Source of the DNA: Betaproteobacteria bacterium
GTDB taxonomy: Bacteria > Pseudomonadota > Gammaproteobacteria > Burkholderiales > SG8-41
Assembly (NCBI GenBank): GCA_947486575.1
Contig: CANKUB010000017.1
Coordinates: 1 to 55,691 of the forward strand
Direction of reading: 5' to 3'
Length of the DNA: 55,691 nt
Shown: positions 3,502 through 55,563 of the stretch, piece after piece
How the letters are laid out: every line of letters starts with the position of its first letter
How positions within the stretch are numbered: position 1 is the stretch's first letter
Made by a program: the position numbers and the translations under genes
Notes under the pieces: model-generated
Database searches by the model: none
Seen by the model: only the letters and a program-made list of their open reading frames with translations
Told to the model about the DNA's origin: nothing

Positions 3502-3547
3502 TTTTTCGTATCGAGCATCTTTACTAAACTAACGCTGGATATTGCGT

Positions 3548-4543
3548 ATGAAACATTGTGTGTACGTTGGTACTGTGTTGTCGGGGTTGGTCAGCGTGAT
3601 GGCTGCAAGCGTTTACGCCCAAACCGCGTTGCCCGGTGCAGCGCAGTTATACCCGAACAAAGCTGTGCGCCTGATCGCGCCCTCTTCGCCTGGCAGTGGC
3701 GTTGATATTGTCGCGCGGTTTTACGCGCAAAAACTTTCTGTCCAGATCAAGCAGCAGGTGGTGGTGGAAAATCGCGCAGGGGCGGGGGCCAATATCGGCG
3801 CGGAATTGGCTGCGAAAGCGCCGCCCGACGGCTATACACTGTTCATGGGCACCCCGGCCCACACCATCAACGCCAGCCTCTACCGGCGGCTGAATTACGA
3901 CATCATCAGGGACTTTGTGCCGATCAGTCAGGTGTCGAGCGGGCAATATGTGGTGGTTGCACATCCTGCGCTGCCAGTGAAGACCTTGCCGCAACTGATC
4001 GCGTTGGCGAAAGCGCAACCGGGTCAGCTGAATTATGGCTCAGCCGGTTCTGGTAACGCGACGCATCTCGCGGCAGAACTGTTTCGTGCGATGGCCAGCG
4101 TCAACATCGTGCACGTGCCCTACAAGGGCAGTGGCCCTGCACTGATTGACTTGGTAGGCGGGCAAATGCAGTTCATGTTTTCCAATTTGACGGCGGCGCT
4201 GCCGCACATGAAATCCGCCAAGCTGCGTGCGCTGGCGGTTACCGGTGAAAAGCGCACGCCCATCGTGCCAGAACTACCTACCGTGTCTGAAGCCGCGCTG
4301 CCGGGATATGCCGTTACCTCGTGGTACGGTTTGTTGGCACCCGCAGGTACGCCACCGGACGTCGTGACCCGGCTAAACACGGAAACCGGCAATGCCATGC
4401 GTGCACCGGACATGAAGGAGCGGTTGGCGGCGGAGGGGGCTGATCCGATGACTGGAACTTCCGCAGAATTGGCTGCCCTGCTGAAAGTTGAGATAGCAAA
4501 GTGGGCTAAGGTGGTGAAGCAGGCGGGGATTACGCCAGAGTAG
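3548..4543 (+). CDS. Bug/TctC-family periplasmic solute receptor
   Basis: This 331-residue protein has a Sec signal peptide (basic start, hydrophobic stretch, cleavage near VYAQ) and the full Bug receptor fold. Marker motifs are YPNKAVRLIAPSSPGSGVDI after the leader, VVENRAGAGANIGAE with PPDGYTL, and NIVHVPYKGSGPALIDLVGG in the second lobe. In this family two backbone loops bind a carboxylate through water, so substrates are usually di- or tricarboxylates or aromatic acids. The receptor normally serves a TctAB-type membrane carrier, not seen here. GVDIVARFYAQ replaces the more usual TDxLAR. ATG 3548 is preferred over an in-frame TTG six bases upstream because it starts a normal signal peptide. 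The gene stands alone, convergent with an MFS gene. Confidence 0.92.
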   Translation: MKHCVYVGTVLSGLVSVMAASVYAQTALPGAAQLYPNKAVRLIAPSSPGSGVDIVARFYAQKLSVQIKQQVVVENRAGAGANIGAELAAKAPPDGYTLFMGTPAHTINASLYRRLNYDIIRDFVPISQVSSGQYVVVAHPALPVKTLPQLIALAKAQPGQLNYGSAGSGNATHLAAELFRAMASVNIVHVPYKGSGPALIDLVGGQMQFMFSNLTAALPHMKSAKLRALAVTGEKRTPIVPELPTVSEAALPGYAVTSWYGLLAPAGTPPDVVTRLNTETGNAMRAPDMKERLAAEGADPMTGTSAELAALLKVEIAKWAKVVKQAGITPE

Positions 4544-9422: not shown

Positions 9423-9971
9423 ATGCGTAACCGTTTTTCCACAGTACTGCTGGCCAGTTTGTTGTGCGCCGCTATAGTAGCGCCGGTAGCGTTGGTAGGC
9501 GCCAACCCGCGTGATCCGCTCGCAAATCCTGCTATCGATATGGAAGGTTACTTGCAGGTGTCGCGCGAAGCGGCGCAACACCGCGCCTCGCGACGCGTGA
9601 CAGAGGAGGAATTCATGCGCATGAGCCGTGAACCCAACACCATAGTGCTTGATGCCCGCAGCCGCCAGAAATACGATGAGCTTCACGTCAAGGGTGCGGT
9701 GAACCTCGCGTTTTCCGACATCGCGGTGGAAAGCCTTGCACGCGCCATACCCGACAAAAACACCCGCATCCTGATTTACTGCAACAACAACTTTGCCAAT
9801 GCCGAAGAGCCGTTCCCCAAAAAAATGGTGACGGCTTCGCTGAACATCTCGACGTATATCGCGCTCTACAACTACGGCTATCGCAATGTGTATGAATTGG
9901 GGCCGCTGGTTTCGCTCGATAAATCGAAGTTGCCGTTCGCATCGACGCCAGTGAAAAACGCGAGGATGTAA
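9423..9971 (+). CDS. Exported rhodanese-like domain protein
   Basis: This 182-residue protein has a Sec-type signal peptide (LLASLLCAAIVAPVALVGA) and one rhodanese domain: LDARSRQKYDELHVKGAVNLA is the CH2A-like region near residues 78-98, and the active-site loop contains Cys120 in LIYCNNNFANA. Rhodaneses carry a sulfane sulfur on that cysteine. The loop is longer than the canonical six residues, so thiosulfate sulfurtransferase activity is not assured. It lies 111 bp upstream of soxB on the same strand, which suggests a role in periplasmic sulfur handling. A similar small rhodanese gene near sox genes is known in other proteobacteria, but I cannot identify a symbol. Confidence 0.85.
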   Translation: MRNRFSTVLLASLLCAAIVAPVALVGANPRDPLANPAIDMEGYLQVSREAAQHRASRRVTEEEFMRMSREPNTIVLDARSRQKYDELHVKGAVNLAFSDIAVESLARAIPDKNTRILIYCNNNFANAEEPFPKKMVTASLNISTYIALYNYGYRNVYELGPLVSLDKSKLPFASTPVKNARM

Positions 9972-10082
9972 CCGCGTTTCGATATGTATTACGTGGCAGC
10001 TATGCTGCCTGGCTGGAACGGGTTATTCTCCATGGCTTTAATCCTTGCGTAATCCGTTGGTAACTCGCTAACGTAATAAGGC

Positions 10083-11774
10083 ATGAATCGCCGCGAATTT
10101 CTCAGCACACTTGCAGCCGCCGCAGCGTATGGCGTTCCGCTTGACGCCGCGCGCGCGCAGGTAACGCAATCACTCTACGATGTGCCACGCTTTGGCAATG
10201 TAAGTCTGCTGCATTTCACCGATTGCCACGCGCAGCTGTTGCCCTCGTATTTTCGTGAACCCAGCGCGAATATTGGCGTAGGCATGGCTGCGGGGCGGTT
10301 TCCGCATCTGGTGGGGGAACATCTGCTGCGCAGTGCGGGCATTGCGCCGGGCACACCGGATGCGCATGCGTTTACCGCGCTGGATTTTGCTGCGGCTGCA
10401 CGGCGTTACGGCAAGGTGGGTGGCTTTGCGCACTTCGCGACTTTGGTGAAGCGCCTGCGGGCCGCGCGTCCCGGCGCGTTGCTGCTGGATGGCGGCGACA
10501 CCTGGCAAGGTTCGGCCACTTCGCTATGGACACGCGGGCAGGACATGATTGATGTTTGCCAGCAATTGGGTGTGGACATGATGACGGCGCACTGGGATTT
10601 TACCTATGGCGCAACGCGCATGATGGAGGCAGTCAGGTCGCTGGGCCGCACGGAGTTTCTCGCGCAAAACGTCAAGACAGCCGATTTTGGCGACCCGGTA
10701 TTCAAGCCCTGTGTGATACGCGAAATTAACGGTGTGCCGGTGGCGATCATCGGACAGGCGTTTCCGTATACGCCGATTGCCAACCCGCGTTATTTTGTTG
10801 CGGATTGGACGTTTGGCATACAAGAAGTTGAACTGCAAAAAATCGTTGATGACGTGCGCGCCAAAGGCGTGCGCGCCGTAGCGCTGTTGTCACACAACGG
10901 CATGGATGTCGATGTAAAGCTCGCCAGCCGTGTGCGCGGCATTGACGTGATTTTGGGTGGGCACACGCACGATGGCGTGCCGGTGCCGATTATTGTCAAC
11001 AACGCAGGCGGTAAAACGGTTGTGACCAATGCGGGGTCAAACGGTAAATTTCTGGCGGTGCTTGATCTGGAAGTGGAAGCCGGTGTGGTGGATTTTCGCT
11101 ATAAGCTGTTACCGATATTTGCCAATCTGCTGCCGCCTGATGCGCCGATGCAAGCGGTGATTGATCGCGTGCGTGCGCCGTTTAAAACAAAGCTCGACGA
11201 ACCGCTCGCGCGCACCGAAGGGCTGCTCTACCGGCGCGGTAATTTCAATGGCACGTTTGACCAATTGATACTCGATGCGCTGATGGTGTCAAAGAACGCC
11301 GAGATTGGTTTTTCGCCGGGCTTTCGCTGGGGCACCACGCTATTGCCGGGCCAGACGATCACGCGCGAACACTTGATGGATCAAACCGCGATTACCTATC
11401 CGTATGTCACAGTGAATGATATGACAGGTGCTGATATCAAAGCCATTTTAGAAGACGTGTGCGACAACCTGTTTAACCCTGATCCGTATTTGCAGCAGGG
11501 CGGCGACATGGTGCGCGTGGGCGGTATGACGTACACCTGCGCGCCGAATGGCGCAGTGGGACAACGCATTACGGATATGCGACTGAAGGGCAAGCCGCTC
11601 GAAGCAGACAAACGCTATAAAGTCGTGAGCTGGGCGCCGGTGGTTGAGGGTGCTACGGGTGAGCCGGTGTGGGATGTGGTCGAGCGGTATCTAAAGGACC
11701 GCAAGATTATTACGCCGCGTGCGCCGAATGTGCCACGCTTACTGGGTGTGGAGAAAAATCAGGGATTGATGTAA
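10083..11774 (+). CDS. soxB: Thiosulfohydrolase SoxB
   Basis: A 563-residue periplasmic enzyme that hydrolyses the sulfonate from the thiosulfonate-loaded SoxYZ carrier, releasing sulfate in the Sox pathway. The N-terminus has a Tat-like leader (MNRREFLSTLAAAAAYG). Metal-site motifs are present: FTDCHAQLLPSYFREP with Asp47 and His49, DGGDTWQGS, AHWDFTYG with His170 (the SoxB version of GNHE), and GGHTHDG with His294/His296. GQAFPYTPIANPRY is diagnostic. It belongs to the metallophosphoesterase/5'-nucleotidase fold and has normal length. No soxXYZACD genes occur in the window, so its partners must lie elsewhere or the gene is solitary. The convergent neighbour ends 27 bp away. Confidence 0.95.
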   Translation: MNRREFLSTLAAAAAYGVPLDAARAQVTQSLYDVPRFGNVSLLHFTDCHAQLLPSYFREPSANIGVGMAAGRFPHLVGEHLLRSAGIAPGTPDAHAFTALDFAAAARRYGKVGGFAHFATLVKRLRAARPGALLLDGGDTWQGSATSLWTRGQDMIDVCQQLGVDMMTAHWDFTYGATRMMEAVRSLGRTEFLAQNVKTADFGDPVFKPCVIREINGVPVAIIGQAFPYTPIANPRYFVADWTFGIQEVELQKIVDDVRAKGVRAVALLSHNGMDVDVKLASRVRGIDVILGGHTHDGVPVPIIVNNAGGKTVVTNAGSNGKFLAVLDLEVEAGVVDFRYKLLPIFANLLPPDAPMQAVIDRVRAPFKTKLDEPLARTEGLLYRRGNFNGTFDQLILDALMVSKNAEIGFSPGFRWGTTLLPGQTITREHLMDQTAITYPYVTVNDMTGADIKAILEDVCDNLFNPDPYLQQGGDMVRVGGMTYTCAPNGAVGQRITDMRLKGKPLEADKRYKVVSWAPVVEGATGEPVWDVVERYLKDRKIITPRAPNVPRLLGVEKNQGLM

Positions 11775-14134: not shown

Positions 14135-15097
14135 ATGAAGACGCAATGTGCACGTTTGCTGGCCATGCTGGCTATAGTTGCCATCCCGGCCTTCGGTCAG
14201 GGATATCCGCAAAAGCCCATACGCATCGTGGTGCCGTTTCCGGCGGGAGGCACCACGGATATTCTCGCGCGCGCCATCGGCCAGAAATTGACCGAGCAAT
14301 GGAAGCAACAAGTCATCATCGACAACCGCCCCGGTGCAGGCGCCAATATCGGCGCTGAGGTTGCAGCCAGGTCGCCGCCCGATGGCTATACCCTGTTTGG
14401 CATATCAACCGCGCACGCCATCAATCCCAGCCTGTATGGCAAGCTTGCCTATGATCCCATCAGAGATTTCGCGCCAGTGACCAACGTCGCGGTGGTGTCA
14501 CAGATTCTGACGGTACATCCGTCATTGCCGGTGAAATCCGTCAAGGCGTTTATCGCCTACGCCAAAGTAAGGCCGGGCGAGTTGAATTACAGCTCGGCAG
14601 GTAACGGCAGCCAGCCGCATCTCACCGCTGAATTGTTCAAATCGATGACGGGCGTTGGCATCGTGCATGTGCCGTACAAGGGCGCGCCACCCGCCATGGT
14701 GGATTTGCTGGCCGGGCAAGTGGCGATTACGTTTGCCACCGCGCCGTCTGCGGTGCCTTATATACGCACCGGCAAATTGCGCGCACTCGGCGTAAGCACA
14801 CCCAAGCGTATCAATGCCTTGCCTGACATTCCCACCATCGCTGAAGCCGGTGTGGCCGGATTTGAAGCCGTTGGCTGGAACGGTTTGGTTGTACCCGCAG
14901 CTACGCCCACAGCGATTATTGAACGTTTGCACGGCGCCATCGTTAAAATCGTGGAAGAACCGTCCATGAGCAAGTATCTCGCTGATCAAGGCGCCGATCC
15001 CTGGACCATGACACCCGCACAGTATGGCGACTACATCAAATCTGAAGTGGCGAAATGGGCCAAAGTCGTCAAGGCGTCAGGCGCGAAGATTGACTGA
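14135..15097 (+). CDS. Bug/TctC-family periplasmic solute receptor
   Basis: A 320-residue, very typical receptor: leader MKTQCARLLAMLAIVAIPAFGQ, then YPQKPIRIVVPFPAGGTTDI, VIIDNRPGAGANIGAE, PPDGYTLFG, VGIVHVPYKGAPPAMVDLLAGQ, and an end at KWAKVVKASGAKID. AAGGA about seven bases before ATG 14135 supports the start. It is divergent from the racemase-like gene, with about 67 bp between the starts, so the two transcription units may share a control region and a substrate. The large SNF2 gene starts 33 bp downstream. Confidence 0.94.
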   Translation: MKTQCARLLAMLAIVAIPAFGQGYPQKPIRIVVPFPAGGTTDILARAIGQKLTEQWKQQVIIDNRPGAGANIGAEVAARSPPDGYTLFGISTAHAINPSLYGKLAYDPIRDFAPVTNVAVVSQILTVHPSLPVKSVKAFIAYAKVRPGELNYSSAGNGSQPHLTAELFKSMTGVGIVHVPYKGAPPAMVDLLAGQVAITFATAPSAVPYIRTGKLRALGVSTPKRINALPDIPTIAEAGVAGFEAVGWNGLVVPAATPTAIIERLHGAIVKIVEEPSMSKYLADQGADPWTMTPAQYGDYIKSEVAKWAKVVKASGAKID

Positions 15098-36008: not shown

Positions 36009-37637
36009 ATGAGTAACGACCGTAAGTACCCCGATTTGCACGATCACCTCGCCGCACTGAAAAAAGCCGGTCTCTTGCTCACCATCAATCGCCAGATCGA
36101 CAAGGATGCCGAGATGCATCCGCTCGTGCGCTGGCAGTATGTCGGCGGTATCGAGCAAGAAGAACGCAAGGCGTTTTTGTTCACCAATGTGGTGGATGGC
36201 AAGGGGCGCAAATACAATTTCCCGGTGGTGGTGGGAGCGCTGGCTGCGAATCCAGCGGTGTACCTCACCGGCATGCAATCGTCAGCCGAGGATGTAGAAA
36301 GGCGCTGGGGCGAGGCGACAGCGAATCCGATTCCGCCACGCGTGGTTCAACAGGCAGCGTGTCAGGAAGTGGTGATTGAAGGCGAGGGCTTGAAGGGGGA
36401 AGGCAACGGCCTCGACAGCCTGCCGATTCCGGTCTCCACGCCGGGGTTCGACAGCACGCCGACGCTCACCGCGACCAATGTGATCACCAAAGACCCGGAT
36501 AGTGGCATTCAGAATCACGGCACCTATCGCGCTGGACTCAAGGCATCTGATCGGCTGGTGATACGCATGGCCACTCGCACTGGTGGCGCTGGCGGCTACC
36601 GGCACTATCTCAAACATCAACAGCGCGGCGATAAGGAAATGCCGTGCGCCATTGTGCTGGGGTGTCCGCCGTGCGTCGCATACGTGGCGCCGATGAAATT
36701 GCCGGTGGATGTCGACGAGATTGGTGTGGCAGGCGGATTGGCTGGTGCGCCGATCAACGTGGTGAGGGCGCGTACTGTGGATTTGCTGGTGCCTGCCGAA
36801 GCCGAAATCGTGATCGAGGGTTTTGTCGATACCGAGTATCTCGAACCGGAAGGCCCGTTTGGTGAATCGCACGGCCACGTGGCTCTCGAAGAATTCAATA
36901 TGCCGATGCGCGTGACGGCGATTACGCATCGCAAAGACGCTGTGGTAGCGTCTTACCTGTCGCAGGTGACGCCGAGTGAATCCAGCGCGATCAAGCTGGT
37001 GTCGTATGAGCCGATGTTTCTGAATCATCTGCGCAAGACGCTCGGCATACGTGGCGTCAAACGGGTAAAACTGCACGAGCGATTGACAGCGCTCCGGCGC
37101 ATCATCATTGTGGTGGTCGAAAAGAACACGCCCAGAACCGAAATCTGGCGCGCCTTGCAAGGCGCGAGCGCGTTTCGCGCGGACTGCGGCAAGATTTGTA
37201 TCGCCGTCGACGAAGATATCGATCCTGAAAACGCCGATGCGATTTTCTGGGCAATGGCGTTTCGCATGAATCCGGTGGAAGACTTGCAGGTGATCAACTA
37301 CCGCAGTCCCGGTCACGGCCCGGAACGGGAGCACGAGGCCGAACGGCAGGACGCTACGCTGCTGATGGATGCCACGAAAAAAGAAGAGTTGCCGCCGCTG
37401 GCATTGCCCAAAAAGGAATATATGGAGCGCGCAGGCAAAATTTGGGACGAACTGGGCTTGCCCAAGCGTCGCGCGCAAGCGCCGTGGTTCGGTCCGGGCG
37501 ATGGCGACTGGCTGCCGCAATGGGACGCGGCGGCCAAGCGTGCCGTTGAAGGGCGTTATCTTGAAAATGGCAAGATCAGCCAGACGCAAAAGCGCAGAGG
37601 ATTAAAACCCGAGACAGGGTTTCGGCCGGACAACTGA
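36009..37637 (+). CDS. UbiD-family prenyl-FMN-dependent decarboxylase
   Basis: A 542-residue enzyme of the UbiD family, whose members use prenylated FMN for reversible decarboxylation of aromatic or unsaturated acids. Seen: the N-terminal PDLHDHLAALKKAG, the cofactor-region text NHGTYRAGL, GGAGGYRHY, and the catalytic acidic block EPEGPFGESHGH with Glu281/Glu286. The end (residues 450-542) has a hydrophilic PGHGPEREHEAE stretch. No ubiX (prenyl-FMN synthase) gene is in the window. ATG 36009 is 7 bp after the SDR stop; an in-frame ATG at 35979 would overlap the SDR. Its TGA overlaps a possible ATG of the next gene (37637). Confidence 0.93.
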   Translation: MSNDRKYPDLHDHLAALKKAGLLLTINRQIDKDAEMHPLVRWQYVGGIEQEERKAFLFTNVVDGKGRKYNFPVVVGALAANPAVYLTGMQSSAEDVERRWGEATANPIPPRVVQQAACQEVVIEGEGLKGEGNGLDSLPIPVSTPGFDSTPTLTATNVITKDPDSGIQNHGTYRAGLKASDRLVIRMATRTGGAGGYRHYLKHQQRGDKEMPCAIVLGCPPCVAYVAPMKLPVDVDEIGVAGGLAGAPINVVRARTVDLLVPAEAEIVIEGFVDTEYLEPEGPFGESHGHVALEEFNMPMRVTAITHRKDAVVASYLSQVTPSESSAIKLVSYEPMFLNHLRKTLGIRGVKRVKLHERLTALRRIIIVVVEKNTPRTEIWRALQGASAFRADCGKICIAVDEDIDPENADAIFWAMAFRMNPVEDLQVINYRSPGHGPEREHEAERQDATLLMDATKKEELPPLALPKKEYMERAGKIWDELGLPKRRAQAPWFGPGDGDWLPQWDAAAKRAVEGRYLENGKISQTQKRRGLKPETGFRPDN

Positions 37638-37741
37638 TGAGGCTTGGTGCAGCCGTACTTCTGTTGGCGGGCGCGCACGTTGGTAGTTGGATGCGGTGTA
37701 GTATGTCTGCAGGTCATGGCAAATGCGAATCGATTAACTAT

Positions 37742-38302
37742 ATGATATTAAAGAATAATTGTAGATATGTCTGGCTGGCTGTGCTGGCGCTGTGTGCGCT
37801 TGCTTGCTTCGGCGCTGCGCAGGCGGCAGAGGGCCTGTTCCCAAATCCGACAGTGATGGCCCCGCCGCAAAAGCCGACCCGGATTCCCGAGTTTGACTTC
37901 GCCAACCTGCACGGTGGGTCGCTGAAGTCGTCCGAGTTGAAAGGCAAGGTGATCATCATCCGCTTCTGGGCAACCTGGTGAGACATCTGCCGAAGCGAAA
38001 TGCCTTCCGTGCAGAGGGCACACAAGGAGTACCCCGCAAAGGATGTTGTTGTTATGACCGTTTCACTGGATGGCGGCGATGGTTTGGCAGTGAAAAAATT
38101 TATGGATGAACACAAATACACCATGCCGTCGGCGCACGATAAAGGCATGGCGTATGGCCGCGCGATAAATGTGCGCGGCGTGCCTTCAACGGTTATTATT
38201 GATCGCCAGCAGAATATCGTTGCGCAAGGCATGGGCCCGCTGGCGCTGGAGAGGCCCGATATCCGGAAAATGATTCAAACTCTCGTGGCGAAGCAAAACT
38301 GA
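37742..38302 (+). CDS. TlpA/thioredoxin-like selenoprotein (in-frame TGA read as selenocysteine)
   Basis: Reading through the TGA at 37979-37981 gives a 186-residue exported thioredoxin-fold protein. The leader is MILKNNCRYVWLAVLALCAL ending at AAQA; the TlpA/AhpC-type domain follows. The redox motif reads RFWATW-U-DICRSEMP with Sec80 and Cys83, where relatives have WCxxC, and RGVPSTVIID supplies the cis-Pro loop. Both sides of the TGA are in the same frame and fit one domain, so it is not a frameshift. The start is uncertain: ATG 37637 overlaps the UbiD stop (TGATG) and would add 35 residues before the leader. It probably reduces a periplasmic disulfide or selenenyl partner such as the next gene's product (inference). 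Confidence 0.82.
37979..38021 (+). promoter_or_regulatory. Sec UGA codon and candidate bacterial SECIS hairpin (TlpA gene)
   Basis: After the TGA at 37979-37981, TGCCTT (38001-38006) can pair with AGGGCA (38015-38020), one G-U pair included, around the loop CCGTGCAG. The stem starts 19 bases after the TGA, within the window expected of bacterial SECIS elements. A smaller GTGC/GCAC alternative overlaps it. Not verified by folding. Confidence 0.45.
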
Positions 38303-38341
38303 CCCGCGAGCCGATTTACAAACCCAGGCAAGGAGGCTGTA

Positions 38342-38896
38342 ATGAATTTACGAATGTTGAAATCCCTGCTGGCGGGGATGGCGCTGATGCTGGCGTCGCA
38401 ATCCGGCCATGCATTGCAGGTGGGCGACAAGGCGCCGGATTTTTCGTTGCCATCGACGAAAGGTACCAATGTCAGGCTTAGCGATTTCGCCGGCAAGCAG
38501 TCAGTGGTGATCTTTACCTACATCGGCGCGTTTACCAAGACTTGAACGCAGGAAGCGCTCGGCTTTCAACTGGATCTACCCAAGTTTGAAGCCGTAAACG
38601 CCCAGGTCCTGGGCGTCAGTGTAGATTTCCTAGATGCGAACCGCACGTGGGTTGAGAAGATGGGTGTAACGTATCCCGTGTTGACCGATCTGCCGCGCAC
38701 GATGTTGCGTGCATATGATGCACTGTTCGACGATCCTGAAATGACTAAGAGCTCACGTATTTCCACTTATTTGCGTGCGCAGCGAGCGTGGTATGTAATC
38801 GACAAACAGGGCTTCGTGCGCTACATGAAGGTGGGATCGACCTCGCTGATACCGAGTGACGAACTGATTGAAGTAGTGAAAAAATACAATCAGTAG
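38342..38896 (+). CDS. Exported peroxiredoxin selenoprotein (in-frame TGA at peroxidatic position)
   Basis: Reading through the TGA at 38543-38545 gives a 184-residue AhpC/TSA-family protein. Leader MNLRMLKSLLAGMALMLASQ, cleavage near GHA; then VGDKAPDFSLPSTKGTNVRL. The active site reads FTYIGAFTKT-U-TQEALGF, with Sec68 exactly at the peroxidatic Cys of the PxxxTxxC/FTxxC motif. The rest (LGVSVDFLDANRTWVEKMG, YPVLTDLPRTMLRAYD, AWYVIDKQGFVRYM) completes the fold. AAGGAGG at 38330 strongly supports ATG 38342. It lies 39 bp after the TlpA-like selenoprotein. It would reduce peroxides in the periplasm. No resolving Cys is obvious, so it may be a 1-Sec enzyme regenerated by the neighbour (inference). 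Confidence 0.85.
38543..38586 (+). promoter_or_regulatory. Sec UGA codon and candidate bacterial SECIS hairpins (peroxiredoxin gene)
   Basis: Two hairpins follow the TGA. GGAAGC (38551-38556) pairs with GCTTTC (38562-38567) around GCTCG, whose loop begins with G but is close to the TGA. AACTGG (38568-38573) pairs with CC-A-AGTT (38580-38586) with one bulge, and its loop lies at a more typical distance. I cannot decide between them without folding. Confidence 0.4.
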
Positions 38897-38929
38897 AATA
38901 GCGTCTGACGCAAAGGCGGCGCGCGGGGG

Positions 38930-40054
38930 CTAATCCACCCGCGCGCCCGACAGCTTGATCACATTCGCCCACTTGGCGATTTCCGTTTTTACATGTGCGG
39001 TAAATTGTTCACGCGTGCTGCCCACAGGTACCACGCCTTCTTCGCCCAAGCGCTGTTTGATATCCGTGCTCTGCATAATTTTTGCCACTGCGGCATTGAG
39101 CAGATTCAGAATATCAGCCGACGTGCCTGCCGGTGCAAACAACCCGTACCACTGGCTTGATTCATAACCTTTTAATCCGGCCTCGGCAACCGTAGGCAGA
39201 TTGGGCATTACTGGCAAGCGTTCACGGCTGGTAACGGCCAGCGCGCGCAGGCGATTCGTTTTGATATGCGGCCCGGCGTTAATGGCGGGCAAAAACATGA
39301 TCATCGCTTCGCCGCCCATCAACCCGATCATTGCAGGGCCGGAACCGCGATACGGAATATGCACCATCTTCACGCCAGCCATCACATTAAACAGTTCGCC
39401 CGCCAGATGCGGCGTGCTGCCGCTGCCCGAACCTGCAAATCCGATTTCGCCGGGCTTGGTTCTGGCCAGCGTGATCAACTCGCTCACGGATTTTGCGGGT
39501 AACGAGGGATGTGCTACCACTACGTTGGGGCCAAACGCAATCAGGCTGATCGCCTCGAAATCGCGCACCGGGTCATACGGCGCTTTGCGATAGAGACTGG
39601 GCGAAGTGACAAAGTTCGCGCCGTTAACCATCAACGAATAGCCGTCCTTTGCTGATTTGGCGACGACTTCGCTGCCGATCATGCCGTTGGCACCACCACG
39701 ATTTTCGACCACGAATGTGCGGCCAAGAGTTTCGGAGAGCTTGGCTGCGGTGAGTCGACCAAGGCTGTCAACGCCGCCGCCAGCGGGGAACGGGACGATG
39801 ATGCGTACGGGGGAGGCGGGATAGGCCTGTCCTGAGCCTGTCGAACTGGTTTGCGCGTGAGTGAGCGAAGATGTAGCGCTGCTAATAATTAGTACAGCAG
39901 CCAAAGCAAGTTGGTTGTCGAAAGAAAATGTAGAAAAACCAGGGTTGTCATTCCCGCGAAGGCGCAAATCCATAACACTACCTGCAATACCAACACGCGT
40001 TATGGATTCCCGCCTTTGCAGGAACGACAGGGTTTTTGAATCGGCTTGGCTCAT
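38930..40054 (-). CDS. Bug/TctC-family receptor with two repeat-derived inserts
   Basis: A 374-residue frame. ATG 40054 overlaps the amidohydrolase stop (ATGA), implying coupled translation. The first ~50 residues include SFLQRRESITRVGIAGSV and MDLRLRGNDN, the translation of a GTCATTCCCGC-type inverted repeat, before the true leader (LALAAVLIISSATSSLTHAQ). An alternative start, ATG at the MDLRLRG methionine (about 39973), would shorten this. After cleavage TSSTGSGQ, from a second repeat, precedes YPASPVRIIVPFPAGGGVDS. Core motifs: FVVENRGGANGMIGSE, KDGYSLM, VKMVHIPYRGSGPAMIGLMGG. The receptor core is intact. Confidence 0.88.
   Translation of the reverse strand: MSQADSKTLSFLQRRESITRVGIAGSVMDLRLRGNDNPGFSTFSFDNQLALAAVLIISSATSSLTHAQTSSTGSGQAYPASPVRIIVPFPAGGGVDSLGRLTAAKLSETLGRTFVVENRGGANGMIGSEVVAKSAKDGYSLMVNGANFVTSPSLYRKAPYDPVRDFEAISLIAFGPNVVVAHPSLPAKSVSELITLARTKPGEIGFAGSGSGSTPHLAGELFNVMAGVKMVHIPYRGSGPAMIGLMGGEAMIMFLPAINAGPHIKTNRLRALAVTSRERLPVMPNLPTVAEAGLKGYESSQWYGLFAPAGTSADILNLLNAAVAKIMQSTDIKQRLGEEGVVPVGSTREQFTAHVKTEIAKWANVIKLSGARVD
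39826..39846 (-). repeat. CTTCGACARGCTCAGG repeat, copy 2 (in coding region)
   Basis: On the minus strand it reads TTCGACAGGCTCAGGACAGG. It encodes STGSGQ directly after the signal-peptide cleavage site of the receptor gene. Confidence 0.85.
39947..40028. repeat. GTCATTCCCGC-type inverted repeat (REP-like)
   Basis: Two 30-bp arms (39947-39976 and 39999-40028) are imperfect inverted copies (about 25 of 30 positions) around a 22-bp centre. The arms begin GTCATTCCCGCGAAGGCG and GTCGTTCCTGCAAAGGCG. This is a dispersed repeat type common in proteobacteria. It lies inside the frame of the receptor gene, between its coupled start codon and its leader. Confidence 0.8.
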
Positions 40055-41070
40055 GATTGCAGACCCAGCAATTGTGCGCCCGTGCCCCAGCAAATTTCGC
40101 GTAGTGCAGCGTTCGATAACTTATTGTTTTTATCGATATTGTTAACGGGATCTGGATCGCGTAACGGAAACGGATAATCGCTTCCGAGCGCGACTTTGCC
40201 TGTGCCCACGCGCTCTATCAAATAGCGCAAAGCTGCATCGTCGTGAAGAATCGTGTCGTAGTAGAGATTGTCGGAATATTTTTCCAGCGGCAGTTTCGCA
40301 GCGCCGCGCGCGAACGGTGGCGCTGTAGTGCGCCCGCGATCAATGCGGCCAAATTGATACGGCACACAACCACCGCCATGCACCAGCAGCACGCGTAGTT
40401 TTGGAAAGCGGTCGAACACGCCGCCCAGCAGCAACGCCGCCGCTGCGTAAGTGGTCTCGGCAGGATTGCCAACAAGGATTTGCAGAAACAGCCGCCGGAT
40501 GCGCGGTGGCACATTGAGGTCGGCCGGATGAACAATCACCGGCACGTTCAACGCTTCGCACGCTTTCCAGAATGGGTCGAACATCGGTGCATCGAGGCCT
40601 TCTTCCTCAACACGCGCGCCAATCTGCACCGCGCGGTGGCCCAGCGTTTTTACGGCGTGGGTCAATTCTGCGGCCGCCAGTTCGCCCGATTGCAGGGGCA
40701 CCATCGCGGCAGCGGCGTAACGATCCGGACGCCTGGCGACCAATTCTGCCAGCGACTCATTTTGCAGGCGCGTGAACCACTGCCCCGCGTCGTCATTCAG
40801 GTGATAAGCCGCGAGGTCCATCCAGCCGGAAACCAGTTGCACGTCGATACCTGCCTCATCCATCCATTTCAGGCGTGCTGATTCATCGATGAGTGTCGGG
40901 ATTAATGGCATGCCGGTCAAACGCCCGCCGACTTCGAGACGCGTGGCACCATCGTCAGATTTCACCACGCGAATACCGTGTGCCGCACCTTCGGCGTTGA
41001 CGCGATCAACGACCGACTGGCCTACGTGATGAGCGTGGATGTCGAGGCAGGGGGGCTGGGTTGTATTCAA
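40051..41070 (-). CDS. Amidohydrolase family 2 (ACMSD-like) protein
   Basis: A 339-residue TIM-barrel metalloenzyme: metal-binding HxH as His12/His14 in LDIHAHHVG, a mid-barrel His in VPVIVHPADLN, another in LLVHGGGCVPY, and Asp in LGSDYPFPLRD. Relatives decarboxylate or hydrolyse aromatic or pyridine carboxylates (aminocarboxymuconate semialdehyde decarboxylase group). No ATG is available; TTG 41070 gives the family start, while the GTG at 41112 would run into the inverted repeat. Residues ~309-318 (NIDKNNKLS) are encoded by a dispersed AT-rich element. It is translationally coupled to the downstream receptor (ATGA). Confidence 0.87.
   Translation of the reverse strand: MNTTQPPCLDIHAHHVGQSVVDRVNAEGAAHGIRVVKSDDGATRLEVGGRLTGMPLIPTLIDESARLKWMDEAGIDVQLVSGWMDLAAYHLNDDAGQWFTRLQNESLAELVARRPDRYAAAAMVPLQSGELAAAELTHAVKTLGHRAVQIGARVEEEGLDAPMFDPFWKACEALNVPVIVHPADLNVPPRIRRLFLQILVGNPAETTYAAAALLLGGVFDRFPKLRVLLVHGGGCVPYQFGRIDRGRTTAPPFARGAAKLPLEKYSDNLYYDTILHDDAALRYLIERVGTGKVALGSDYPFPLRDPDPVNNIDKNNKLSNAALREICWGTGAQLLGLQS
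40117..40145 (+). repeat. AT-rich dispersed element, copy 7 (inside a coding region)
   Basis: TAACTTATTGTTTTTATCGA and following bases lie within the amidohydrolase gene, antisense to it, and encode an Asn/Lys-rich stretch close to the C-terminus. Confidence 0.7.
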
Positions 41071-53611: not shown

Positions 53612-54601
53612 GTGTTTTTAAAACAATGGGTTGCAATTGGCTGTGGGGCGGTGGTTTGTGGCGGTGTTGCGTACGCGCAGAACCCTTCGACAGGCTCAGG
53701 GCAGGTTTTTCCGACGCGCACCATACGCGCCATCGTGCCGTATGCGCCGGGCGGATCAACCGACGTGGTGATGCGCATACTCGCGCCGCGCATGAGCGAA
53801 ATTCTCGGCCAGCAAGTGCTTGTGGAAAATCGACCGGGTGGATCATCAACCATAGGCCTTGATATTGCCGCCAAGTCGCAGCCGGACGGCCACACCTTGG
53901 GGATTGCCAATATTACTTTCAGCGCCAACCCCAGCCTGATCCGCAAAATGCCGTTTGATTCGGAAAAGGACCTCGCGCCGGTTTCGTTTTTTTCGCTGGT
54001 GACGCTGGTGATGGCTGTGCATCCTTCGGTGCCGGTCAAAACCGTGAAAGATCTGATCGCGCTGGCAAAGAGTTCGCCGGGCACGCTCAATTACGCCTCG
54101 GCGGGCAATGTCAGCGCCAATCATCTGGCCACCGAACGCTTCAGTTCGGCCACGGGCATCAAAATGACCCACGTGCCATACAAGGGCGGTGGGCCCGCGG
54201 TCATTGCGCTGCTCTCCGGCGAAACCGCGCTGCTGTTCGCCACCATTCCTTCATCAGTGCAGCACATCAAGGCGGGCAAACTGCGTGCACTGGGCGTTTC
54301 AAGCCTCAAGCGCAGCGTGGCGCTACCGGAGGTGCCGAGTGTTGCCGAAGCGGCGGTGCCCGGATTTGAGGCAAATGAATGGAACGGCGCGCTGGTGCCC
54401 TCGGGCACGCCGCGTGCCAATATCGACCGCCTGTATCAGGCCGTGGCTAAATCGATAGCCATTCCCGAAGTGCGCGAGCGCATCATTGCGCTCGGTGCGG
54501 AACCGGTGGGCAATACGCCCGAAGAGTTCGGCGCGTTCATCAAGCGCGAATTCGGCGTGTGGGCCAAGATCATCAAGGAAGTGGGCATCAAAGTCGAGTG
54601 A
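53612..54601 (+). CDS. Bug/TctC-family receptor with repeat-derived insert (second in tandem)
   Basis: A 329-residue receptor with start GTG 53612 preceded by GGGAG. The leader FLKQWVAIGCGAVVCGGVAY ends AQ; the next residues, NPSTGSGQV, come from a dispersed repeat, before the family start FPTRTIRAIVPYAPGGSTDV. Others: VLVENRPGGSSTIGLD, QPDGHTLGIA, IKMTHVPYKGGGPAVIALLS. The start region (53606-53632) weakly resembles the AT-rich element in reverse. Its TGA overlaps the next ATG (TGATG at 54599-54603). Confidence 0.91.
   Translation: MFLKQWVAIGCGAVVCGGVAYAQNPSTGSGQVFPTRTIRAIVPYAPGGSTDVVMRILAPRMSEILGQQVLVENRPGGSSTIGLDIAAKSQPDGHTLGIANITFSANPSLIRKMPFDSEKDLAPVSFFSLVTLVMAVHPSVPVKTVKDLIALAKSSPGTLNYASAGNVSANHLATERFSSATGIKMTHVPYKGGGPAVIALLSGETALLFATIPSSVQHIKAGKLRALGVSSLKRSVALPEVPSVAEAAVPGFEANEWNGALVPSGTPRANIDRLYQAVAKSIAIPEVRERIIALGAEPVGNTPEEFGAFIKREFGVWAKIIKEVGIKVE
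53683..53705 (+). repeat. CTTCGACARGCTCAGG repeat, copy 3 (in coding region)
   Basis: CCCTTCGACAGGCTCAGGGC and following bases; one mismatch to copy 1. It encodes PSTGSGQ immediately after the signal-peptide cleavage site. Confidence 0.85.
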
Positions 54602-55563
54602 TGCGCGGCTTATTCGCCGTCTGTGCTGGTGTGGCGATTGGCAGTGCGCCAGACGTGGTGGCGCAGGAATTTCCACCCAAGCAAATCACCATCATCGTTG
54701 GCTTTCCGGCGGGTGGCGGCACGGATTTTTTCGCGCGTGTGTTTGCCCAGAAACTTGCGCCTGCCTTGGGCGCTAGCGTTATTGTTGAAAATCGCGCTGG
54801 CGCGGCAGGCACGCTTGGCACCGGACTGGTGGTGCGCGCAGCGCCCAACGGACAGACGCTGCTGTTTACGCCGTCAAACCTGGCGATGACGCAGGCCATC
54901 AGCCGCAATCTGACGTTTGACGCGCGCAAAGACCTTGCGCCAATCACGATGACGGCGAAAATTGCGTTTGTGCTGGTGATTCATCCTTCGCTGCCTGCGC
55001 GCAATGTGAAGGAACTGGTTGCCTTGGCCAAGGCGCGCCCCGGCGCGCTGGACTATGGTTCCAGTGGTGCGGGTTCGCCACCGAATTTCGCTGCCGAATT
55101 ATTCAAATACAAAGCAGGTGTCGATATCCGGCACATACCGTACAAAGGTGCCGGACAGATATTGACCTCGCTGCTGGCCGGTGAAGTGCAATCCTCATTT
55201 CTGATTCCGCCGATCGCCAGGCAGCACATGCAAGGCGGCAAATTACGCGGCCTTGCAGTGACCACGCCGCAGCGCTCGGTGGCGGTGCCGGAATTGCCGA
55301 CACTGCACGAAGCGGGCGTAGCGGACTACGATGTGACGCAGTGGCACGGGTTCTTCGCGCCGGCAAAAACGCCCGTGGCGATTATTAATCGCCTGCACAC
55401 GGAAATCGTCAAAAGTCTTGCCACGCCGGAGATCAAGCAGCGGCTGGTTGCCGAGGGCGCTGAAGCGGCTGGTGGTGCCCCCGCTGAGCTGGGGGCATTT
55501 CTTGCAGAGGAAATTCGCATGTGGAGCGATCTGGCGCAGCGTATCCGCTTGAGCTCAGAGTAG
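54601..55563 (+). CDS. Bug/TctC-family periplasmic solute receptor (third in tandem)
   Basis: A 320-residue receptor with a short leader, MRGLFAVCAGVAIGSAPDVV then AQ, mature start EFPPKQITIIVGFPAGGGTD. Others: VIVENRAGAAGTLGTGL, APNGQTLLFTP (Asn-Gly-Gln in place of the usual DGY), VDIRHIPYKGAGQILTSLLAG, and a C-terminal MWSDLAQRIRLSSE in place of KWAKVVK. The start overlaps the previous stop, so the three receptors are probably one transcript. The sequences are too different to be recent duplicates. Confidence 0.93.
   Translation: MRGLFAVCAGVAIGSAPDVVAQEFPPKQITIIVGFPAGGGTDFFARVFAQKLAPALGASVIVENRAGAAGTLGTGLVVRAAPNGQTLLFTPSNLAMTQAISRNLTFDARKDLAPITMTAKIAFVLVIHPSLPARNVKELVALAKARPGALDYGSSGAGSPPNFAAELFKYKAGVDIRHIPYKGAGQILTSLLAGEVQSSFLIPPIARQHMQGGKLRGLAVTTPQRSVAVPELPTLHEAGVADYDVTQWHGFFAPAKTPVAIINRLHTEIVKSLATPEIKQRLVAEGAEAAGGAPAELGAFLAEEIRMWSDLAQRIRLSSE

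Follow-up and report, generated by a model that had tools for sequence, protein, structure and literature searches.

A conserved TlpA-like and peroxiredoxin-like gene pair of a betaproteobacterium with predicted selenocysteine codons and a candidate two-part selenocysteine insertion sequence

Two adjacent genes of a betaproteobacterium (GenBank assembly GCA_947486575.1, contig CANKUB010000017.1, positions 1 to 55,691; this whole stretch of 55,691 nucleotides is referred to here as the window) each carry one in-frame TGA where a redox protein would have its active-site cysteine. The first, gene A, encodes a TlpA/ResA-like protein with a thioredoxin-type fold, and the second, gene B, encodes a peroxiredoxin-like (Prx) protein. 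Comparison with relatives shows that both TGAs behave like selenocysteine (Sec) codons and that the two genes, arranged as in an operon, have been conserved together as a unit; the presence of Sec at both sites is nearly certain. The best explanation overall, to which we assign a probability of about 0.7, is a Sec pair that is decoded through an ordinary selenocysteine insertion sequence (SECIS) in gene A and a two-part SECIS in gene B and whose products would form an exported diselenide relay. The features of the pair are as follows.

37742 to 38302, forward strand: gene A, a predicted TlpA/ResA-like thioredoxin-fold selenoprotein of 186 amino acids with a UxxC motif (WUDIC), probably exported; read from ATG to the stop TGA at 38300-38302.

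37979 to 37981, forward strand: predicted TGA Sec codon in gene A, at residue 80 (RFWATWUDICRSE); supported by direct reading, relatives and a codon-usage scan.

38001 to 38020, forward strand: putative SECIS hairpin of gene A, with a 7-bp stem and the loop CGTGCA at 38008-38013, 26 nt after the TGA; supported by covariation and SECIS constraints.

38330 to 38336, forward strand: AAGGAGG, a Shine-Dalgarno-like sequence 5 nt 5' of the gene B ATG; identified by eye.

38342 to 38896, forward strand: gene B, a predicted Cys-free peroxiredoxin-fold selenoprotein of 184 amino acids with a TxxU motif (FTKTU), probably exported; read from ATG to the stop TAG at 38894-38896.

38543 to 38545, forward strand: predicted TGA Sec codon in gene B, at residue 68 (YIGAFTKTUTQE); supported by direct reading, relatives and a codon-usage scan.

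38561 to 38593, forward strand: gene B hairpin I (33 nt), a putative helix that spaces hairpin II from the TGA; supported by covariation and folds.

38598 to 38616, forward strand: hairpin II of gene B, with an 8-bp stem and the loop GTC at 38606-38608, 60 nt after the TGA; the putative SelB-binding part.

A preliminary description of this DNA had reported a single TGA at the active-site Cys position of each gene (WUDIC; FTKTU) and a gap of 39 bp between them; direct reading confirmed the former and the coordinates the latter. Its claim that each gene continues in the same frame over a full domain was borne out as well, as PF00578 (AhpC-TSA) matched gene A with 79.8 bits and gene B with 111.5 bits (cut-off, 26) when the TGA was read through, and Redoxin models also scored above the Pfam cut-offs for both. 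A codon-usage scan of the window in all frames of both strands, which required the coding signal to span 40 codons or more on each side and within 60 codons, returned only the TGAs at 38543, 37979 and 15095, the last of which is a true stop between two consecutive same-frame genes. Both N termini resemble signal peptides, as had been proposed, when judged by eye, and we infer a periplasmic location for both proteins. The terminal TGA of gene A (38300-38302) is in frame with gene B, and if this stop were read through as well, a fusion of both proteins would result; a TGA stop ends 14 of the 43 TlpA genes found in pairs, gene A included. Under translation table 11, positions 37637 to 38930 of the forward strand are without any listed open reading frame (ORF) of at least 180 amino acids, and ordinary gene calling would therefore miss both proteins as wholes. 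Searches with Rfam (gathering thresholds) and ARAGORN gave zero matches within the window.

Relatives of gene B retained the TGA throughout its own family and a second one. In 74 genomes of the same family, 50 matches (E ≤ 1e-20, gene B itself included) were distributed over 48 genomes, each with exactly one TGA. An order-wide search of 399 genomes found 27 that match gene B (E ≤ 1e-18); all matches in this family and in a second family (f6) carry one TGA, and the TGA form was present in 4/4 genomes of the latter. Twelve remoter, stop-free relatives from five other families (32 to 39% identity) have TGC or TGT, and thus Cys, at the site in all 12 cases. Genes were extracted from 55 loci, the window's included (50 from the family search and 5 from the order search). 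The Prx site is TGA in all 55, and in 43 of them the Prx gene is preceded, 11 to 84 bp upstream, by a TlpA-like gene that has one TGA and no more (UxxC). Six loci (L057-L062) are sister pairs with the reversed gene order and a TlpA with CxxC, and the Prx TGA is kept. No TlpA was found at the other six, of which L035, L053, L056 and L071 are cut by contig ends. The last two (L063:1509-2030 and L085:1501-2007) hold a second Sec-Prx type, FAFTGGU, in which the motif Pro is kept; it comes from two genomes of one genus (G062, G065), and no TlpA neighbor was found beside it.

A scan of GTDB r220 by pattern and tblastn yielded 54 loci, many of them the same records as in the 55-locus set. The peptides used overlap the conserved hairpins, so that the scan was possibly biased toward Sec forms; the family, order and f6 searches were free of this. 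All 54 loci have TGA at the Prx site, and 47 have a TGA-containing TlpA upstream. A Cys TlpA is present at L135 and L139 (both titled Rokuibacteriota) and at L137 (titled Deltaproteobacteria), and L113, L121, L131 and L138 lie at contig ends. The records with the TGA pair are titled Betaproteobacteria, Burkholderiales, Tectomicrobia (L099) and Entotheonella (L109, L114), among others. Eight loci titled Bordetella parapertussis (L088, L089, L092, L093, L096, L105, L110 and L120) group by sequence with uncultivated betaproteobacterial bins in which this pair occurs, and these titles, like Chitinophaga (L111) and Rhizobiaceae (L122), look like those of mislabelled metagenome bins. In a phylum-wide profile search of 398 genomes (E ≤ 1e-30), the window's own genome alone matched. 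The remaining three TlpA-type matches of the source genome are without TGA. The interchange of Cys and Sec among homologues that had been looked to as evidence was thus observed at both sites, with Cys in 12/12 remote Prx relatives and in the partner TlpA of nine loci, and none of the relatives in the family, order or GTDB loci ends at the TGA.

The source genome (5.35 Mb in 282 contigs, 98% complete) encodes the machinery for Sec insertion, for which the preliminary description had proposed a genome-wide search: selA (579 bits; cut-off, 267.9), selB (455.8 bits; cut-off, 242.25), selD (426 bits, on contig C248, with one in-frame TGA in the match) and tRNA-Sec with anticodon TCA are all present. 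One stretch of contig C47 carries selA, selB, a thioredoxin-reductase-like gene and tRNA-Sec, in that order. The thioredoxin-reductase-like gene (L010:12861-13772) matches TIGR01292 with 230.3 bits, below the cut-off of 343.45, and may supply reductant to selenoproteins. Beside selA and divergent from it, on the minus strand of the same contig, is a UGSC-like selenoprotein gene (L010:7454-9199; AUGAC, one TGA), whose post-TGA part gives a weak match to NF041046 (21.9 of 125 bits) and whose table-11 ORF begins only downstream of the TGA. SelD (L041:1399-2625, C248; GGGUGCK) itself seems to be a selenoprotein in this genome. Elsewhere, selA was found in 67/74 genomes of the family (39/41 of those with a completeness of 90% or more and a contamination of 5% or less) and in all nine genomes reached through L099, L104, L109, L112, L114, L116, L135, L137 and L139, eight times above the cut-off and once as a fragment at a contig end.

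Several properties of the proteins suggest how they could cooperate. Gene B lacks Cys altogether, and 54/55 loci are without Cys beyond Prx residue 22. Because gene B has no resolving residue of its own, an outside reductant would be needed, for which the conserved neighbor gene A is the obvious candidate; it is likely that the two proteins act together. The AlphaFold2 model of gene A is of the thioredoxin type (pLDDT 89.0) and contains Sec80-x-x-Cys83. In the proposed relay, both proteins would be exported to the periplasm, where peroxide or a similar oxidant would oxidize Sec68 of gene B to a selenenic form. Sec80 of gene A would then attack the oxidized Sec68 to give an intermolecular diselenide, which Cys83 of gene A would resolve. 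The selenenylsulfide left on gene A would be reduced in turn, perhaps by DsbD, of which the source genome encodes one.

Peroxide is slightly favored as the substrate of gene B. Over 35 alignment rows, Thr65 and Sec68 are invariant and Arg148, which we take to be the catalytic Arg of peroxiredoxins, is nearly so. The AlphaFold2 model of gene B has a peroxiredoxin fold (pLDDT 90.3), with Bcp4 as the best match in the PDB (TM 0.77/0.89). These same observations speak against an unlikely alternative, in which the pair is a selenoprotein redox couple without peroxidase function that serves another oxidant or the maturation of periplasmic metal centers, and in which gene B would be a reductase or sensor with a peroxiredoxin fold. 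Such a role would agree with the loss of the Pro of the PxxxTxxC motif, which is Ile61 in gene B and Ile, Val or Thr, never Pro, in the 53/54 GTDB loci for which the residue is shown, so that it is lost in all members read at this position; Arg148 is absent in two (L070 and L072). The neighboring genes give no hint of peroxide, and TlpA-type proteins serve in metal-center maturation. The preliminary description had proposed a periplasmic peroxide-reducing couple. Its paired selenoprotein system is strongly supported, but the peroxidase part is weaker than claimed because Ile replaces the Pro of PxxxTxxC, and gene B is termed peroxiredoxin-like on account of the missing motif Pro.

The RNA downstream of both TGAs is conserved together with the protein. 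In the numbering used here, position 1 is the U of UGA. The TlpA hairpin spans positions 23 to 42 with the loop CGUGCA. Among 48 sequences (41 distinct), 97.9% of cells are paired and three pairs are changed on both sides, a covariation score reached by 0/500 shuffles. Codon choice follows the stem: in general, Pro CCC occurs with Arg AGG and CCT with Lys AAG, by which a C-G pair becomes U-A, and two distinct rows, the window's among them, combine CCT with AGG in a U-G pair. Codons within or beside the stem are frozen (TCC in 48/48, GTG in 49/49, CAG in 49/49 and AGG in 33/34), and nine Cys genes form only 1 or 2 of the 7 stem pairs, compared to a mean of 6.87 in the TGA genes. A second potential TlpA stem (UCUGC/GCAGA), although paired in 90% of cells, was set aside because none of its pairs is ever changed on both sides. 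According to the available text of PMC13188914, a bacterial SECIS has a loop of 3 to 9 nt with a G among the first two, a stem of 4 to 16 bp, a distance of 16 to 37 nt from the UGA and an energy of at most -7.5 kcal/mol. When these constraints were applied by our own script rather than bSECISearch, 48/48 TlpA sequences agreed with them, 47 at 26 nt with the loop CGTG and one at 31 nt. We infer, with good support, that decoding of the gene A UGA relies on a bacterial SECIS of the ordinary type.

Gene B differs in layout. Prx hairpin I occupies positions 18/19 to 51 and hairpin II positions 56 to 74, with the loop GUN. Among 54 sequences (50 distinct), 94.0% of cells are paired and five pairs are changed on both sides in 47 cells; neither the cell number nor the score was reached by any of 500 shuffles. 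Hairpin II is the better paired of the two (99.0% of cells versus 90.7%). In most rows, its Asn AAT occurs with Ile ATC and AAC with Val GTC or GTG, which accounts for 23 double-changed cells. In many rows of hairpin I, Ala GCC or GCT goes with Glu GAG or GAA, with 13 double-changed and 13 unpaired cells; the latter are mostly in Gly rows, where a one-base register shift restores the stem in the fold. The 12 Cys Prx genes keep 3 to 8 of 12 pairs in hairpin I and 3 to 7 of 8 in hairpin II, compared to 10.9 and 7.9 in the TGA genes. Seven of the 8 hairpin II pairs are kept in the Cys Prx genes of L076 and L081, since the encoded peptide is similar. A helix closing Prx nucleotides 3 to 7 with 77 to 81 was rejected, as it pairs in only 71% of cells.

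None of the 54 Prx sequences has a hairpin that fits the constraints in the 16- to 37-nt range, and 53 fit in loop, stem and energy at 59 to 60 nt. As to the bacterial SECIS prediction that the preliminary description had proposed as a check, the constraints accommodate the gene A hairpin, but gene B fails them on distance. With the 33 nt of hairpin I folded out, the GU of hairpin II would come to lie at positions 31 to 32, as in TlpA, at an effective spacing of 26 to 27 nt. A GU at the start of the loop is common to the TlpA, UGSC-like and SelD genes, and in Prx it occurs in hairpin II alone. In the UGSC-like gene, the hairpin GCCCGC-CGUGUU-GCGGGC is found at 17 nt, with more stable hairpins listed further off, and for SelD, where the bulge-free scan listed none, the fold shows a GUU loop some 20 nt past the UGA. 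From the GU loop on hairpin II and the TlpA-like spacing, it is somewhat probable that gene B carries a two-part SECIS, in which hairpin I would fold out of the path as a spacer, placing the GU loop of hairpin II at the effective distance seen in gene A, and SelB would bind that loop. The gene A UGA would be read through its ordinary hairpin. Only tentatively can it be suggested that such a two-part SECIS serves an exported double-selenoprotein diselenide relay and has been kept in both Betaproteobacteria and Entotheonella/Tectomicrobia. Other Prx genes differ in this region: in the reversed-order loci (L057-L062), five of six Prx sequences fit the SECIS constraints, at 18 nt, and so have a SECIS of the ordinary type, and the scan gave no fitting hairpin for L059, nor for the FAFTGGU type (L063, L085) even at -5 kcal/mol.

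Hairpin I might instead be an atypical gene B SECIS by itself, with hairpin II kept for, e.g., ribosome pausing or mRNA stability; both proteins would still be selenoproteins and partners. Hairpin I does stand at the usual place, with a covarying stem and a loop 28 nt after the UGA, and some bacterial SECIS elements are described as deviating from the model (PMC13188914, available text). However, hairpin II is kept better than hairpin I, as noted above, and its GUN loop resembles those of the other selenoprotein genes and, in the accessible portion of PMC3834832, of the Escherichia coli SECIS. We therefore regard this possibility as improbable, at roughly one chance in four, and prefer the two-part SECIS.

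When the pairing partners were slid by 1 to 3 columns, pairing dropped to 31 to 67% in the TlpA hairpin and to 21 to 53% in the Prx hairpins. Changes on independent branches went in the same direction at 57-73 (1.9/4 pairs), 58-72 (1.9/2) and 21-48 (3.9/4), with none opposite; control sites were mixed (same/opposite, 0.1/0.9, 0.6/0.2 and 0.7/0.6). Several results count against the overall explanation. The independent-branch pairs at these three positions are too few for significance, and 42/500 shuffles had at least as many Prx pairs with changes on both sides. Random synonymous codons form 8.6 of 12 pairs in hairpin I, 6.1 of 8 in hairpin II and 3.9 of 7 in the TlpA hairpin, and 16%, 10% and 2% of single synonymous draws, respectively, equal the real sequence; pairing counts are therefore weaker evidence than covariation and codon freezing. 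The fold energy of the first 48 nt did not stand out from synonymous shuffles (mean z, -0.13 for Prx and -0.84 for TlpA), a test that is uninformative because the pooled codon usage already holds the signal and 48 nt truncates Prx hairpin II; pair counts and covariation were used in its place. The UGA-to-loop distance of 60 nt in gene B lies outside the published range, the TlpA-like spacing after removal of 33 nt is a single numerical agreement, and the UGSC-like gene and SelD of the same genome have shorter spacings. Furthermore, the family search found no Prx (E ≤ 1e-20) in 26 of its 74 genomes, and Sec cannot be essential in gene A, since the partner TlpA has Cys at nine loci (L057-L062, L135, L137 and L139).

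Explanations by nonsense mutation, faulty assembly or reassignment of UGA in this genome are extremely improbable, as the preliminary description had argued for coincidental mutations: nothing beyond the TGAs themselves points to them, both TGAs are found again in dozens of genomes from several phyla (by record title) that were assembled separately, protein and RNA are conserved downstream of both, the window scan found no further such TGA except the true stop, and tRNA-Sec, selA and selB are present.

A conserved third gene was not apparent among the 60 most shared neighboring ORFs, and those that recur look like tripartite-tricarboxylate receptors (by eye, from the window's copy) or antisense ORFs of the pair. 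About a dozen tripartite-tricarboxylate (Bug) receptor-like genes were recognized by eye in the window (e.g., 3542-4543, 14135-15097, 38930-40093 and 54559-55563); one of these genes converges on gene B, and similar ORFs lie near the pair in 19 other compared loci. At 9423-11774, a rhodanese-like gene and, after it, a SoxB/5'-nucleotidase-like gene were likewise identified by eye.

If the two-part SECIS is real, searches by current constraints miss such genes, and the variety of bacterial SECIS elements is named as a main obstacle to selenoprotein gene finding in the available text of PMC12013277. The gene B family is well populated, fits every SECIS constraint except spacing and offers a clear structural reason to examine it. 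The pair itself, made up of two small proteins, would be a natural system in which two selenocysteines must react together outside the cytoplasm.

With regard to known systems, gene B resembles Sec-containing peroxiredoxins (TxxU) in its AhpC-TSA fold and in the position of Sec at the peroxidatic site after Thr. It differs from them in having a signal peptide (by eye), no motif Pro, no Cys and an adjoining UxxC partner. PrxU of Eubacterium acidaminophilum is reportedly a protein of this kind; gene B falls below the cut-off of the PrxU model (NF040737, 45.5 bits versus 270) and also below that for Prx-SUH (NF045827, 19.6 versus 298). Gene A resembles Sec-containing TlpA/Prx-like oxidoreductases in its thioredoxin fold and in the replacement of the first Cys of CxxC by Sec. 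As it scored below the curated cut-offs for TlpA (NF047696, 78.2/230 bits), ResA (NF002854, 89.6/170), DsbE (TIGR00385, 35.6/123.15) and WAxxUGC (NF041054, 59.7/300), it is TlpA/ResA-like by domain and motif only. Both Prx with TxxU and TlpA/Prx-like proteins with UxxC (PF00578, cd02966) are listed as selenoproteins in Table 1 of a 2026 review (PMC13188914, available text); unlike the known UxxC entries, gene A stands in front of a Prx gene. The same review, in the portion available, describes operons in which Prx is joined by a SELENOW-like selenoprotein and Prx-like by an AhpD-like one. As in the pair reported here, a selenoprotein Prx gene there adjoins a second redox selenoprotein gene, but the partner families are different, seen on ten, one and one sequences. 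Neither a TlpA(UxxC)-Prx(TxxU) pair nor a SECIS displaced by a spacer hairpin was encountered in the open-licence literature as far as its text was available, including PMC13188914, PMC9312934, PMC12013277, PMC7539508, PMC3834832 and PMC4607533. The TlpA hairpin agrees with all four published constraints on bacterial SECIS elements. Prx hairpin II is like them in loop, stem and energy and unlike them in its distance of about 60 nt behind a second hairpin; its core, CAGGTC, also occurs within the E. coli SECIS ggttgcaggtctgcacc (PMC3834832, accessible portion). Judged against this literature, both protein types are known selenoproteins, and the conserved pair and its SECIS layout appear to be new.
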